Source: a virus
DNA length: 40,573 bases
Direction: 5' to 3' (one strand)
IMG/VR virus record: IMGVR_UViG_3300005340_000055
Span: 1 to 40,573 of that record
Numbering within the stretch: position 1 is the stretch's first letter; each line of letters opens with the position of its first letter. The notes under the pieces are model-generated. The model saw only the letters and a list, made by a program, of their open reading frames with translations. It made no database searches and was not told the DNA's origin. A program made the translations under genes and the position numbers. Shown in pieces: positions 1 through 37,846 of the stretch.

Positions 1-113
1 AAGTGGCGACGATGCCATTCCAGGCGATCGCAAACTTCTACGACCAACTCGACAACGCAAAGACCAAAGAGGACGACGATGGAAGCGAAGCTTCTGAAGA
101 CGACGCAGGCTGA
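1..113 (+). CDS. C-terminal end of an upstream phage protein, probably portal (partial)
   Basis: The frame read from base 3 is open and ends at TGA 111-113, giving a tail that finishes with an acidic, low-complexity stretch (KEDDDGSEASEDDAG). Its 5' part lies outside the window. The following gene starts inside it (ATG 79, 35-bp overlap), as expected in a packed head operon. Position just before a co-chaperonin, scaffold and capsid makes the portal protein the best guess, because portal normally precedes scaffold and capsid in podoviruses. That is inference from order only; the visible 36 residues carry no diagnostic motif. Confidence 0.55.
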   Translation, partial: VATMPFQAIANFYDQLDNAKTKEDDDGSEASEDDAG

Positions 114-462
114 GTACGTTCAAGGCACCTACAGCGGCAAGAACGAGAGCGGTTACCGCCCGATCGGGGACCGCATCCTGGTGCTGCCCGACACTGCTGC
201 GGAGAAGTCATCCGGCGGCGTGTTCATTCCGGAAAGCTCCGTGGAGCAGCAGAGCTATGCGGCTGAGACCGGCGTCATCATCGAGCTCGGCGATACGGCG
301 TTTACCTGGAACGCTGACCGCACGCGCCCGTTCACCGGCGAGAGGCCGAAGGCGGGCAATCGCGTGTTCTTCGACCGCTACTCCGGCGGCATCCTGAAGG
401 GGAAAGACGGCAAGCTCTACCGCTTCATGGACGACAAGGCGATCGGCGCGGTGAGCGCCTAG
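79..462 (+). CDS. GroES/Cpn10-like co-chaperonin
   Basis: A 127-residue protein whose residues from about 25 on match the GroES (Cpn10) pattern: GYRPIGDRILVLPD, then SSGGVFIPES, a Gly/Val-rich stretch (ETGVIIELG) and a basic hairpin ending KDGKLYRFMDD. GroES forms a seven-fold lid on GroEL. Phage versions such as T4 gp31 adapt host GroEL for folding of the major capsid protein. The N-terminal 24 residues are an extension that GroES lacks. The start at 79 is supported by GAGG six bases upstream. Its place between the presumed portal and the scaffold fits a role in capsid protein folding. Family call is firm; the specific client is inference. Confidence 0.8.
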   Translation: MEAKLLKTTQAEYVQGTYSGKNESGYRPIGDRILVLPDTAAEKSSGGVFIPESSVEQQSYAAETGVIIELGDTAFTWNADRTRPFTGERPKAGNRVFFDRYSGGILKGKDGKLYRFMDDKAIGAVSA

Positions 463-28316: not shown

Positions 28317-29972
28317 TCACGCCGCCTTCTTCTTGGCTGGTTTCTTCGCCGGCGCCTTCTTTGCTCCGGGCCCGTCGTATCCGGCAACACGCAGCTGTTC
28401 CGGAAGCCACTTGGTCTTGGGCACATTGGCGATCGCGAACGCCGCGGCCTCGCCAGTCTTCATCTTGAGCACCTTGGCGCCGTGGTCTTTGCCCATCGCC
28501 TCGGTGACGGCCTGCGCGATGATCGCCTTGCTGATCCCGCCGAAATAGTCTTTCGGGTCGAAGACCTCGCGCAGCGCCGCATTCATGCGCTTGGGGTCGA
28601 TTGCGTTGCAGATGGTCGAGGCTGCATCTTCCTCGTTGAATGCATCCCGGCTCGCGTTGTAGTTCCGGAAATCGAACGCGCCGCCGACCAGCTTAGCGAA
28701 CAGCGCCATTTGCTCTTTCGGCGCCATCTTGCCGATGCGCGTGAATGCGGCATCGAATTCTTCGTCGTACTCGATCTCGCGCGCGCCGAATCCGTCATTT
28801 CGGAGCTTCACGCCGGTTTCATATGAGATCAGCGCCGCCACCGCGATCGTCAGCGCGAGCGACGGATCGCTCTCGACCGCCTTTGCCGCAGCCACCGTCA
28901 GCGCGCAACTCAGCCGGTGCGCCATGGCATTGGATATCGCGGCTTCAACGGTCTCGCCCTTGGCCTTGGCGGCTGCGGTCTTTGTCTTCTTCTGCTGCGA
29001 CGGCTTCTGCATCGCGTAACGGATCTCGAGCGTGCCATCGTGCTTGAGTTCGACGAGACACCCGGACTTGGCCATGTTTTCGGGCGATTGCTTTTTGCCA
29101 CCAGGCAGCTGGGTCCAGTTCCAGGTGCTGTGTCCGGCCTCTTCGCGCGTCTCGGCCCAAGACCAGCCTTCCGCCTTCAGCGCTGCGCATTTGTCGGCAA
29201 GCTTCTTGTCGGCGAGCTTGCGCAAAAGCTTCTCATCCGACACCGCAGAGTTGTCGTTCTCTTTCTCGGCGAACAGATCCTCGATAATGGTCCCGCCGGC
29301 GGCCTCATAGTCCTTGCGGCCGACAAAATGGAGCAACTTCGCGGCACCGTCTTGGTCGCCGACGATCGCGCGGCGGATTTGCCAATTACTGGCGCGCTTG
29401 CCGACCTTCTTGAAAACACGCTCCTGATCGGCATGATCGGCCGCCATCGTATAGGCTTGAGCCTCTTCCTCATCGAGTTCGCCGGCGCGCCATGCCTCGC
29501 GGATCTTCGGCGAGAGTGCGGCCAACGCCAGCGACTGCTGTACATATCGTTTGCTCGTGCCGTACCGCGCCGCGATCTCCTCGATCGTATCGCCGCCGGC
29601 GATGAACGCGGTGCAGGCCTCGAACTCGTCGACCGGGTGCATCTCGTCGCGGAACAGGTTGAGCGCCAGCGACGTATCGCGCGCCTGCTCGTCGGTTGCT
29701 TCCTCGATCGTGACCGGGACCGGATATTCCGAGGTGACCGGAATACCCTTGATGTCCTGCTTGGCCTTGGCGATCGTCTGCAGGGCGCGGAGGCGTTTGC
29801 CGCCATCCGCGACCTTATAGCCTTCGCCGTTGAGGCGGACCAGGAGCGGGATCTTGATGCCGATCGCGCGGACGTTCATCACGAATGCGGGCGATGGCTC
29901 GACATCGGTTTTGCGGACGTTGATCGGGTCGATCGAGAGTTGAGAAAGCGGGACGTGGCTGACGCTGGTCAT
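28317..29972 (-). CDS. ParB/Spo0J-like nuclease-domain protein
   Basis: 551 residues. The N-terminal ParB domain (1-100) reads VPLSQLSIDPINVRKTD, AIGIKIPLLVRL and DGGKRLRALQTIA, the last replacing the usual GERR motif. Residues 125-165 form a helix-turn-helix (TIEEIAARYGTSKRYVQQSL and KIREAWRAGEL). The middle is a long helical part, and the end is a Lys/Pro/Ala-rich tail. Plasmid ParB-like proteins bind parS sites or act as CTP-gated clamps or nucleases; no ParA ATPase gene is seen in the window. The phage protein could regulate transcription or take part in replication. It starts by ATGA with the upstream gene. Confidence 0.75.
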   Translation of the reverse strand: MTSVSHVPLSQLSIDPINVRKTDVEPSPAFVMNVRAIGIKIPLLVRLNGEGYKVADGGKRLRALQTIAKAKQDIKGIPVTSEYPVPVTIEEATDEQARDTSLALNLFRDEMHPVDEFEACTAFIAGGDTIEEIAARYGTSKRYVQQSLALAALSPKIREAWRAGELDEEEAQAYTMAADHADQERVFKKVGKRASNWQIRRAIVGDQDGAAKLLHFVGRKDYEAAGGTIIEDLFAEKENDNSAVSDEKLLRKLADKKLADKCAALKAEGWSWAETREEAGHSTWNWTQLPGGKKQSPENMAKSGCLVELKHDGTLEIRYAMQKPSQQKKTKTAAAKAKGETVEAAISNAMAHRLSCALTVAAAKAVESDPSLALTIAVAALISYETGVKLRNDGFGAREIEYDEEFDAAFTRIGKMAPKEQMALFAKLVGGAFDFRNYNASRDAFNEEDAASTICNAIDPKRMNAALREVFDPKDYFGGISKAIIAQAVTEAMGKDHGAKVLKMKTGEAAAFAIANVPKTKWLPEQLRVAGYDGPGAKKAPAKKPAKKKAA

Positions 29973-30400: not shown

Positions 30401-30645
30401 CGCGACCACCTTTTGGTAATCCAGCCGGGTTTCGCTTCGTGCATGAGCGCGACGAACTCATCCCGGTCGGCCTCGTTTCCGAAATACAGAGCCAGCGGGA
30501 CGGTCGGCTCCAATTTTTCGTCGGCAGCGCGCCCCATCTCGGTGATCACGAACGCCATCAGGTCATCGACCGGCGAACCTTGACGCAGCATCGCGTCTTG
30601 TTGAGCCGTCTGGAGAAACTGCTTGCAACGCTCGCGAAGTGTCAT
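30397..30645 (-). CDS. Small unknown protein
   Basis: 82 residues from ATG 30645, overlapping the HerA-like stop (ATGA). MTLRERCKQFLQTAQQDAML, VDDLMAFVITEMGRA, RDEFVALMHEAKPGW. Soluble, alpha-helical. A pattern I have seen in Rhizobiales phages without a function. Coupled to both neighbours. Confidence 0.5.
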   Translation of the reverse strand: MTLRERCKQFLQTAQQDAMLRQGSPVDDLMAFVITEMGRAADEKLEPTVPLALYFGNEADRDEFVALMHEAKPGWITKRWSR

Positions 30646-32366
30646 GCGATCCACTCCGCACGCGCGACCTGGCCCTGTGACGGATACTCGATCACTTCAA
30701 GCGAGCGCATCGAGCCGAGCACGTTCTTGAGGTGACCGCTGGTCGGCTCCCAGCCGCAGCGGTTGGCGATCTCCTCGCGCGAGATTGCTTCGCCACTCTT
30801 AGGCAGATTGTCGAAAACGATGCGCTGCGGGCCGGTCAGGATCGCGCGCACGCTGTCTTCGAGTGTCGCCGATGTGTCGGGCGCCGGCGCCGCGGCCGCT
30901 CCGGTCACCGTGAGCGTGATCGCGCCTTCAGAGGGGTATTCGATCAGGCCGAGTGTGCGAAGCGACCCGGCAACATTCTTCATGTGTCCAGAGGTGACAC
31001 GCCAGCCGGCAATGACGGCGACCTGCACGCGGGTCGGGTTCTGGTGCCCCATTCTCGCCCACCAGGCCAGCGCCTGCAGCAACTGCCGCTGCGGACCCGA
31101 AAGGCTCCCGTCACCACTCGCCGCAGGCGACGGGTTGCGCACCGGTGTGGTCTCCGGACGCGCTCGGGGTGTCCGAGCGCCGGGTGGAGGAGCGCTTGGC
31201 GAGCCCGATTGGAATTCAGGTAAGGCAGGAGCCTTGAGGACAGAGGCTTCGTGGCGATCGACGGCCTTGCGGGCCTCGTCGGCGAGGACGCGAAGCGATG
31301 ACAGTACGTCGCGGCCGAGAGTGACGAAGAAGTCGCCGCGCGCCTCGGCCGCCGCCAGTCCTCGGTTGAAACCGCGCGCCTCGGCCGCGGCGATCGCCGC
31401 CGGATCAGGCGCGCTAATTTTTGCCGCCTCGTTCGCGGGCGATTGCGCCTTCAGCCGCGCGATTTCGGCCTTGAGCGCCTTCGGGTCGTTGGCCTTGGTC
31501 TCGGTTTCGATCGTAGCCAGCCGATCCTTGAGCTTACCGAGATCCAGCGGCTTCAACGCGGCCGTCCGTTTCTTCTCACCGCGCTTGGGTGTCCGCGAGG
31601 AATCGAACGTGCGCTTGACCGGAAACGCGACCGTGGAAAGGACGCCGCGACCGGGGACCCAGACAACGCCGTGCCCTTGCTGCAGTGTCGGCAGCGCGGC
31701 GCGGATTTCTTTCCATTGCTGGCGATCGGCTTGTCCCTCGATCCAGCCTTCGAGCGCGTCGCGATCCTGCGAGCTCGTGAGCTTGAACGCGACCAGGCCG
31801 TCGACTTGTGACAACACATCCTTGCTGATGACCGCCGGCCGCTGCGTGATCAGCCACGGGATCAGGCCCTTAATCCGGCCACGGCGACAGATCTCTTCCA
31901 TCCGGCTTTGCAGCATCGGTTCGGACGACTTCTGCGGCGCCCAAAGATCGGCCTCGTCGAAGATGATGTGGACGGGTTCGCCGCTCGCTTTGCGATAGAT
32001 GGCGTCCAGAAACGCCAGCATGAATCGTCGTTCCGACGCCTTAGTGGTCAGTCCTCCGAGCGAGACGATGCAGGACTCGGCCATCCCGGCGACGGTCTCA
32101 CCGATCAGTGCGCCGGCGTGCTCGTTTAGCGGCAAGTCGCCGTGCGATCCGCCGAAGATCGGCATGGCGTAGCGCGACGGCCCGGAGCCGTCCGCGATGA
32201 GGCGCAGACCCCACCACACGTCGAGCGGATCGACGACGACGATTCGCGCGCCGCTATCCAGCAATCGTTCGACGCAGGCGCTGGCATTGTATGTCTTGCC
32301 GCTGCCGGCCGTGCCGACAAAGCCGAGACGGTCGTCGAGAGCGGCGTCTGGGATGGGATGCTTCAC
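30642..32366 (-). CDS. HerA/VirB4-like ATPase with tandem winged-helix domains
   Basis: 574 residues. Walker A is GTAGSGKT at 18-25 and Walker B VHIIFDEADLW at 132-142 (D137, E138); segments DPLDVWWGLRL and GLIPWLITQRP follow HerA/FtsK-type ATPases. After about residue 250 comes a Lys/Ala-rich coiled linker, then two copies of a winged helix: 421-488 (SGPQRQLLQALAWW... SGHMKN) and 509-574 (TGPQRIVFDNLP... SGHLKN), both ending in LIEYPS/VIEYPS. HerA motors translocate on DNA; a DNA-binding duplicate could give site specificity. No nuclease partner gene of NurA type is visible. Confidence 0.7.
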   Translation of the reverse strand: MKHPIPDAALDDRLGFVGTAGSGKTYNASACVERLLDSGARIVVVDPLDVWWGLRLIADGSGPSRYAMPIFGGSHGDLPLNEHAGALIGETVAGMAESCIVSLGGLTTKASERRFMLAFLDAIYRKASGEPVHIIFDEADLWAPQKSSEPMLQSRMEEICRRGRIKGLIPWLITQRPAVISKDVLSQVDGLVAFKLTSSQDRDALEGWIEGQADRQQWKEIRAALPTLQQGHGVVWVPGRGVLSTVAFPVKRTFDSSRTPKRGEKKRTAALKPLDLGKLKDRLATIETETKANDPKALKAEIARLKAQSPANEAAKISAPDPAAIAAAEARGFNRGLAAAEARGDFFVTLGRDVLSSLRVLADEARKAVDRHEASVLKAPALPEFQSGSPSAPPPGARTPRARPETTPVRNPSPAASGDGSLSGPQRQLLQALAWWARMGHQNPTRVQVAVIAGWRVTSGHMKNVAGSLRTLGLIEYPSEGAITLTVTGAAAAPAPDTSATLEDSVRAILTGPQRIVFDNLPKSGEAISREEIANRCGWEPTSGHLKNVLGSMRSLEVIEYPSQGQVARAEWIA

Positions 32367-32773
32367 GCTTCCTCCTGCGTCACGGCGAGCGCATGAATGC
32401 GCCGCGTCACGGCGAGCATCGGGTTCACGCGTCGATACAGCCGCCTTGTGTCCGGCCCCTCGAACGTCGCGCGCCCGTCGGCGACAAGCTGCGCGAGCGC
32501 GTGCCTGATCGTTGTGCGTGCGAGATCTTCGATGCGGATGCCGACCTGGCGCGGCGTGCGGCCTTCGCGGTCCGAGAGCGCGGCTTCGACCGCGTTCAGG
32601 ATCGCCGGTGTGTTGCTGCGCCGAAACTCGCGCTGCCAGGCGGTGAATTCATCGCCCGAGATGGCGTAGTGCGCGCAGACGGCCTCGCGCGTGGCGAACC
32701 CGGCCGCGACCAGCGCGACGATTTCCTTCTTGCGCTCGGTGTTCCAGCGCGGGATGACGGGGAGCGAAGTCAT
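32363..32773 (-). CDS. DUF1153 (SciP-like) regulator with C-terminal winged helix
   Basis: 136 residues from ATG 32773, preferred over 32785 because GGGTGA lies just upstream. Residues 4-50 match DUF1153: LPVIPRWNTERKKEIVALV, then TREAVCAHYAISGDEFTAW. In Caulobacter this family includes SciP, a small DNA-binding protein that blocks CtrA-dependent transcription. Residues 56-115 add a winged-helix-like part (ARTTIRHALAQLVADGRATF). Usual SciP proteins are about 90 residues and lack this second part. It is ATGA-coupled to the HerA-like gene. Regulatory function is inferred. Confidence 0.65.
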   Translation of the reverse strand: MTSLPVIPRWNTERKKEIVALVAAGFATREAVCAHYAISGDEFTAWQREFRRSNTPAILNAVEAALSDREGRTPRQVGIRIEDLARTTIRHALAQLVADGRATFEGPDTRRLYRRVNPMLAVTRRIHALAVTQEEA

Positions 32774-32777
32774 CTGA

Positions 32778-33041
32778 TCACCCATCGAACTTGTTGATGT
32801 TGAACGCCATCCGCTGGAGCGGGCTTGGCTTTGCGCCTTGCGGGCAGATGGCAATGTTCGCTTCAAGGCCGTCGATGCTGACGCGCGCACCTTGCAGATC
32901 GAGACCAGGCTCAAGACCGAGAAACTGGAACGGAGTGTTGCAATCGGTGCACTCGACAGTGATCTCGGCCATGAATTGCCCGATGTTCTCCAGCCGTGCG
33001 ACCTTCACATGGGCGCCGAAGTTGAGATGCTTGCAGGTCAC
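32778..33041 (-). CDS. Small conserved protein with paired cysteines
   Basis: 87 residues. MTCKHLNFGAHVKVARLENI, VECTDCNTPFQFLGLEPG, ANIAICPQGAKP. A CxxC (CTDC) and an earlier Cys-Lys-His could bind zinc, though the spacing is not a named finger. I recognise it as a frequent early gene of Rhizobiales phages without a function. Overlaps the next start by about 4 bp. Confidence 0.55.
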   Translation of the reverse strand: MTCKHLNFGAHVKVARLENIGQFMAEITVECTDCNTPFQFLGLEPGLDLQGARVSIDGLEANIAICPQGAKPSPLQRMAFNINKFDG

Positions 33042-36877: not shown

Positions 36878-37846
36878 TTATTTCTTGATGCGGAGATCGA
36901 TGTAGTTTGTGGGCTCGACCGTGTAGCCGGCGCGGTTCACGCGGTTGGCAGTCACAAAGCGGCCGTCGAGCAGGCGGCCCGCCGACGCGGTACCGAGGCG
37001 ATGGAGCAGCTCGCCCTTGATTTCTTTCTGGCGCTTCTCGATCGCGGTTTTCTGCGGCGCCAGTGCCTCCCGCTCGGCGACCAGCTGCGGCACATGGTTG
37101 TCGGCGGTAAGGTCGATGATGTGGCCGTCGGGCGCGTAGAGCTGCTCGAGCAGCGCGGCGTCTTTGCCGTAGTCGGGCTCCGGCGTGCGGCCTTCCTCGA
37201 CCAGGCGCCAGAATGCGTCGACCTCGTTTTTGATCCGGTCGATGATGCCTTCGTGCAGCGGTACCGGAATGATCGGGAGTTCGACGCCGTGGCCGACCAC
37301 CATCGGGGCGACAGCGGCCCACTCAAAGCCCGTGAGGTGGCACTCGACGATTGCCTGTACGACGATCCAGAGCGGCGGACTGACCTCGCCGTCTTCGCCC
37401 TTCCATGATTTCCGGAAGATGCTCGGCTCGACAGTCTTGATCTGGATGATGCCCCAGCGGCCGTTCTCATCACGGGCGAACAGATCGGGTGTGGCGCCGA
37501 GCCGCGTCACCGGATCGCGGAAATAGAGGCCGATCGGGTGATCGCTGATCTGCCAATCCGGCCGATCCTCGCGGAGCATTTGCACGGCGACGGGCTCAAG
37601 CAGCCGGCCGCGGCGCATCGGCGGCGTTTCCTCGACGTCGTCGGCAATGAGGCCGGTTTTGAGCGCCCAGAGCTGATAGGCTGTTGCATAGGGGTGAATG
37701 CCGAGCAGCGCACCGGCGACCGATGCGGTGACGTCCTTCTGGCGGAGCGCGAGCCACTGATCGCGCGAGCCGATCTTGATCCGTTCGATCTTCGCCGGGG
37801 CTTTGATGCTGGCGGCGAGTTCGCCGGAGATTGCGATGTCGTTCAT
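36878..37846 (-). CDS. YqaJ-type viral exonuclease (PD-(D/E)XK)
   Basis: 322 residues. The N-terminal RQKDVTASVAGALLGIHPYA and RGRLLEPVAVQML are typical of YqaJ/lambda-exonuclease-like enzymes; the active site reads LGATPDLFARD (Asp121) and GIIQIKT, where Gln135 stands in place of the usual Glu before Lys137. E84 lies in the first motif. Such 5'-3' exonucleases produce single strands for RecT, encoded 17 bp downstream. The Gln is known in some variants of this family and needs testing. Confidence 0.8.
   Translation of the reverse strand: MNDIAISGELAASIKAPAKIERIKIGSRDQWLALRQKDVTASVAGALLGIHPYATAYQLWALKTGLIADDVEETPPMRRGRLLEPVAVQMLREDRPDWQISDHPIGLYFRDPVTRLGATPDLFARDENGRWGIIQIKTVEPSIFRKSWKGEDGEVSPPLWIVVQAIVECHLTGFEWAAVAPMVVGHGVELPIIPVPLHEGIIDRIKNEVDAFWRLVEEGRTPEPDYGKDAALLEQLYAPDGHIIDLTADNHVPQLVAEREALAPQKTAIEKRQKEIKGELLHRLGTASAGRLLDGRFVTANRVNRAGYTVEPTNYIDLRIKK

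Follow-up and report, generated by a model that had tools for sequence, protein, structure and literature searches.

Results

The early region of the phage record

The sequence studied here (hereafter the window) is an IMG/VR virus record of 40,573 bases, which encodes an integrase and a major capsid protein with 57% identity to that of the podovirus record MW202785. Leftmost in the structural region, at 79-462 (+), is a gene that reads as a GroES-like co-chaperonin, and MW202785 has an annotated GroES at the same place. The terminase and portal genes that lie upstream of GroES in MW202785 were not seen in this record, and the contig is therefore probably incomplete.

The early genes form a leftward block that comprises a RecE/YqaJ-type recombination exonuclease in its upstream part (36878-37846 (-); YqaJ E 5.1e-11, phrog_434 E 2.6e-55), a RecT-like protein, a DnaQ-type exonuclease, a weakly ASCH-like protein, several small genes, the 136-aa protein that is the subject of this study (P0001; 32363-32773 (-)), a HerA/FtsK-type ATPase (30642-32366 (-)), an HTH protein and, downstream in the same operon, a ParB-like protein (28317-29972 (-); HTH_ParB E 9.6e-9, phrog_7783 E 2.6e-74). 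P0001 was recognized by its match to Pfam PF06627 and its coding pattern, and consists of a DUF1153/SciP-type HTH core followed by a unique C-terminal extension. Its start is the ATG at 32773, with the preceding stop a few bases earlier; the neighbouring small gene of the same operon (32778-33041 (-)), which matches no Pfam family, ends 4 bases before that ATG. Both halves of P0001 have a coding pattern by GC3 (0.90 and 0.83), against a non-coding-like 0.64 for the in-frame upstream extension. The open reading frame is a real phage gene inside an operon, and its coordinates and start are right. A scan of the early region for sigma-70-like promoters was uninformative (one match, 1.8 expected).

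The ATPase gene starts at a GTG that overlaps the stop codon of P0001 (GTGA), and the two genes are therefore probably translationally coupled. The ATPase matches phrog_2666 (E 9.8e-21), its HerA Pfam matches being weak and sub-threshold, and it has relatives at loci L019 and L020. The same ATPase gene occurs in two viral contigs, at 63% and 47% identity over the matched parts; neither contig, both of which may be fragments, has any DUF1153 match, and P0001 looks like an accessory gene. By reading, the C-terminus of the ATPase seems to contain two winged-helix-like repeats, with similar pairs in L019 and L020; BLAST found no similarity between P0001 and these repeats.

A DUF1153 core in P0001

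SciP is a cell-cycle brake of Alphaproteobacteria that inhibits CtrA. The original prediction had placed a DUF1153 pattern at residues 4-50 of P0001, and this was borne out: Pfam PF06627 aligns residues 8-57 (32603-32752 (-)) with model positions 28-77 of 87, at E 9.2e-10 and 39 bits, above the gathering cut-off of 23.5 bits. In the genome-level profile search P0001 scored 39.9 bits, the lowest among the phage copies of DUF1153 found (65-126 bits for the others). The best NCBIfam match of P0001 is the SciP model (E 1.5e-10, 41.1 bits), and the two E-values together show that the match is not due to chance, yet it is limited to the HTH core. Generic HTH and transposase Pfam models fell below their cut-offs (HTH_28, 17 of 25 bits; HTH_Tnp_1, 16.5 of 24.1 bits), as did the NCBIfam model for IS66 TnpA (19.8 bits, cut-off 74). 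The E. coli control genome also contains one DUF1153 match above cut-off, so the match alone is no proof of a SciP.

The near-invariant DUF1153 residues R9, W10, R14, K15, G25, E42, F43 and W46 are kept, and alignment with SciPs shows retention of the core LP, RW, RK, V, V, G, Y, E and W. The nearest relatives are alphaproteobacterial SciPs, with 41-45% identity over the core; 133 of 385 alphaproteobacterial genomes match P0001 at E <= 0.001, mostly through residues 5-58 of short open frames. AlphaFold models a confident tri-helix at residues 12-52 (pLDDT about 92). Foldseek ranks 2jrt, a DUF1153 protein of Rhodobacter sphaeroides, first among the matches to this model (probability 1.00, rmsd 1.9 over 52 columns); the E-value is only 0.92 because the domain is short. 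The same protein is the top sequence match, over residues 8-49, and was recovered again by VIA-align over residues 2-62, with a Z of 6.0 that does not exceed those of unrelated helical rows. In a maximum-likelihood tree of DUF1153, P0001 is the longest branch and is unplaceable, there being too few columns. Judged by profiles and conserved residues, P0001 is a genuine phage member of the DUF1153 domain family.

Departures from SciP proper

The NCBIfam equivalog model for SciP (NF051866) has a cut-off of 100 bits, which S. meliloti SciP, encoded near fliJ and ctrA, passes with 141.8 bits. P0001 begins at the LP of the N-terminal SciP arm (RPxxVxGPxGxPLTxADLPP), which is otherwise absent, and in place of the C-terminal tail GLRxTRxQxYR it has NTPAILNAVEAAL.... 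Because it scores 41 bits against this cut-off of 100 and is missing both arm and tail, P0001 does not, on its sequence, qualify as SciP proper and lies outside the equivalog.

Two SciP positions have been defined genetically. In a Caulobacter mucR1/2 mutant, sciP(T24I) and sciP(T65A) restore hvyA translation and buoyancy, and overexpressed SciP is nearly inert when it carries T65A (PMC4241560). S. meliloti SciP has a T21/T62 pair with the same spacing, 41, as T24/T65 in Caulobacter, and on this ground T24 would map to the arm missing from P0001 and T65 to S39, the latter a conservative change. This mapping was made through the S. meliloti protein.

The C-terminal extension

Single-sequence searches of phages, viral contigs and genome contigs returned no close relatives of P0001. 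Its extension, residues 59-136 (32366-32599 (-)), has no close relative in the collections searched, and these contain no homolog with the full P0001 architecture. Of the winged-helix-like C-terminus originally predicted, the extra stretch exists. Its pattern TIRHALAQLVADGRATFEGPDTRRLYRRV can be read as that of a winged helix, and a single comparison aligned it, at 33% identity over 72 aa and E 2e-4, with the N-terminal part of a probable wHTH/Fic-type protein; however, Pfam matches are weak and sub-threshold, and two AlphaFold models of the C-terminus are all-helical and wingless, at low-to-modest confidence. A winged helix is thus plausible rather than shown, since the sequence resembles one, yet the models, at modest confidence, lack the wing. 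A long match in genome G290 was considered as a DUF1153 fusion and rejected, as it covers the wHTH-like N-terminus of a protein read as Fic-type. Residues 48-116 also give a borderline match to phrog_142 (Ren-like exclusion protein), at E 0.0093, and the matches that VIA-align gave for the low-confidence C-terminus, mostly helical bundles, were taken as meaningless.

Host and cell-cycle signals in the phage genome

No N-centred palindrome in the record is avoided more strongly than GANTC, the CcrM/HinfI site, which has 44 occurrences where 101 are expected from 4-mer counts and 214 occur in dinucleotide shuffles. Relatives of the phage RecE occur in two alphaproteobacterial genomes (45-47%), and codon usage is close to that of several alphaproteobacterial loci. 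Together these observations indicate a CcrM-bearing alphaproteobacterium, which is probably the host, although restriction directed at GANTC would account for the avoidance too. GANTC is entirely missing between 32245 and 35050, a span that includes P0001.

The CtrA box TTAA-N7-TTAA does not occur in the 40,573 bases, even with one mismatch, which is weak evidence because only 0.8 are expected. There are 7 copies of the SciP motif TGTCGCG, fewer than expected. There is therefore no sign of CtrA regulation in the phage itself, host promoters being a separate matter; such regulation has been described for other alphaproteobacterial phages (PMC9437464). The prediction that P0001 is SciP-like enough to act on CtrA found no support, and the hypothesis that it hijacks the CtrA circuit is made less likely by its score under the equivalog cut-off, the missing arm and tail, and the absence of both CtrA boxes and SciP-motif excess.

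DUF1153 proteins in other phages and on plasmids

Alignment-based scans located DUF1153 in other viral contigs, in two forms. Full-length SciPs are represented by L158/L159 (113.9 bits, above the equivalog cut-off; L158:5968-6288), encoded between a DnaQ-type exonuclease and a RIIA-like gene in a module with a phage DNA polymerase, a Dda-like helicase and RecE; by L102 (103.4 bits), between head and tape-measure genes; by L014 (116.2 bits), near phage terminase and major head genes; and by L012 (123.7 bits), among phage-family genes of a 40-kb viral contig. The proteins of L158 and L012 matched no PHROGs v4 family. Arm-less forms, scored with the NCBIfam SciP model, occur downstream of a single-strand annealing protein in L017 (72.2 bits), in L018 (82.8 bits) and L103 (66.8 bits), and in the cultured Erythrobacter phage XM05, as a 64-aa protein annotated as hypothetical (63.6 bits; L021:6031-6225). 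The 116-kb viral record to which L018 belongs (G007) has two DUF1153 copies, at C1:11950-12156 and 49700-49879.

Three further loci were not accepted as phage SciPs. L016 was excluded as host sequence bordering a provirus, its SciP having 97% identity to the S. meliloti protein and a neighbouring gene reading as mnmA, and L013 and L015 are ambiguous, their flanking genes reading as host genes. Sphingomonadales plasmids, several of them conjugative, also carry DUF1153/SciP genes (L003, L005, L006 and L011), of which the two tested pass the equivalog cut-off; copies of SciP therefore travel on plasmids too.

DUF1153/SciP proteins, full-length and truncated, are thus recurrent in alphaproteobacterial phages, and we found no paper describing them: the term DUF1153 did not occur in the literature searched, and among papers on SciP with phage or prophage none had a title or abstract dealing with a SciP encoded by a phage. 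The full-length copies (L158, L102, L012 and L014) suit the idea of a hijack more than P0001 does, and the SciP of L158/L159, beside its RIIA-like gene, is a better candidate for acting on CtrA.

Discussion

We consider P0001 to be an early phage DNA-binding regulator, built on an HTH captured from an alphaproteobacterial SciP and extended by a new second part, and put the probability of this reading at about 0.5. The phage would have captured the HTH with its near-invariant residues (RW..RK, G, EF..W), and this part presumably still binds DNA. The extension would be a second domain, probably a winged helix, for DNA binding or dimerisation, and could give P0001 a target of its own, most likely phage promoters or operators or a few host promoters. 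P0001 probably no longer docks on CtrA as SciP does, because the SciP-specific parts have been lost. The reading draws on the core match and its conserved residues, the resemblance of the modelled fold to 2jrt (the top-ranked structure, albeit at E 0.92), the loss of arm and tail with 41 bits against the 100 of the equivalog, a phage genome free of CtrA boxes and of SciP-motif excess, the resemblance of the extension to wHTH sequences, and the position of P0001 in the early leftward block, among recombination and replication genes. Against it stand the structure models, which do not support a winged helix, the absence of a homolog of the same architecture from the searched collections, and the fact that DNA binding is a prediction for every part of P0001, with no promoter or operator target identified.

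The same relatedness to SciPs, at 41-45% over the core, would also be expected of a working SciP mimic, which would bind CtrA or CtrA-bound promoters and block CtrA-activated transcription during infection, so that flagellar, pilus or cell-cycle gene expression would shift to suit the phage. The conservative replacement of Caulobacter T65 by S39 (if the mapping holds), a probable CcrM-bearing host, the full-length SciPs of other phages and the precedent of phage GcrA are consistent with this. We regard it as possible but doubtful, given a SciP score under the equivalog cut-off, a DUF1153 score that is the lowest of the phage copies, and the loss of the tail and of the arm in which T24 would lie. 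The stop-start overlap with the ATPase gene and the ParB-like gene further down the block could instead point to a DNA-recognition partner that loads the HerA-like ATPase onto the phage genome in replication, segregation or recombination, and is no transcription regulator; this is unlikely, as the two viral contigs with related ATPases are entirely without a DUF1153 gene, and the ATPase therefore does not need P0001.

Two readings would deny P0001 its SciP character or its function. A decaying or neutral orphan, in which a captured SciP fragment without function runs on into new sequence, accords with the long branch of P0001 in the family tree and the lack of homologs of its full architecture, but is improbable for an intact frame with coding composition in both halves, near-invariant core residues kept and tight packing in an operon. 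Least probable is a generic IS3/IS66/IS481-type transposase HTH with DUF1153 as a cross-match. The folds are related, the IS66 TnpA, IS481 and IS3 models match weakly, and DUF1153 exceeds its cut-off in E. coli too; but the DUF1153 and SciP models lead all transposase models by over 20 bits, the control IS2 InsC has no DUF1153 match at E up to 1, and no transposase gene adjoins P0001, which largely refutes it.

Returning to a captured and rebuilt HTH, the presence of complete SciP genes in related phages suggests that phages borrow SciP. We tentatively propose that alphaproteobacterial phages have repeatedly captured SciP, complete or rebuilt, to silence CtrA-activated genes while infecting the host, and that P0001 could be a rebuilt example whose second domain redirects repression to new promoters; we hold this general scheme to be less probable than our reading of P0001 itself. 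The phages with full SciPs are a more striking result than P0001. The set of SciP-carrying phages would allow a direct test of whether phages control CtrA, with reporters already available in Caulobacter and Sinorhizobium. P0001, as a SciP family member cut down and joined to new sequence, offers a natural experiment on which parts serve CtrA and which serve DNA.

Compared with SciP (NF051866/PF06627), P0001 shares an HTH core of about 50 residues, the same near-invariant residues and the predicted tri-helical fold of 2jrt, but is without the N-terminal arm and the GLRxTRxQxYR tail, has about 80 extra C-terminal residues, and lies in a phage operon rather than a ctrA/flagellar neighbourhood. 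Like the full-length phage SciPs (L158/L159, L102, L012 and L014), it is a DUF1153 protein encoded beside phage genes in a viral contig; unlike these complete, single-domain proteins above the equivalog cut-off, it is truncated and extended. The arm-less phage forms (L017, L018, L103 and XM05) resemble P0001 in keeping the HTH core without the N-terminal arm and in falling under the equivalog cut-off, but their scores, at 63-83 bits, are above that of P0001, its extension is shown in none of them, and L018 and XM05 retain the SciP tail that P0001 lacks. Among components of the alphaproteobacterial cell-cycle circuit, those already known from phages are homologs of GcrA, encoded by phiCbK-like phages (PMC3556154), and of CcrM, for which phage analogs are known (PMC9437464). 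P0001 resembles these in being a phage-borne relative of an alphaproteobacterial cell-cycle regulator (PMC3556154, PMC9437464), and differs in being of the SciP type, with the HTH core alone kept; to GcrA and CcrM, phage SciPs add a repressor.
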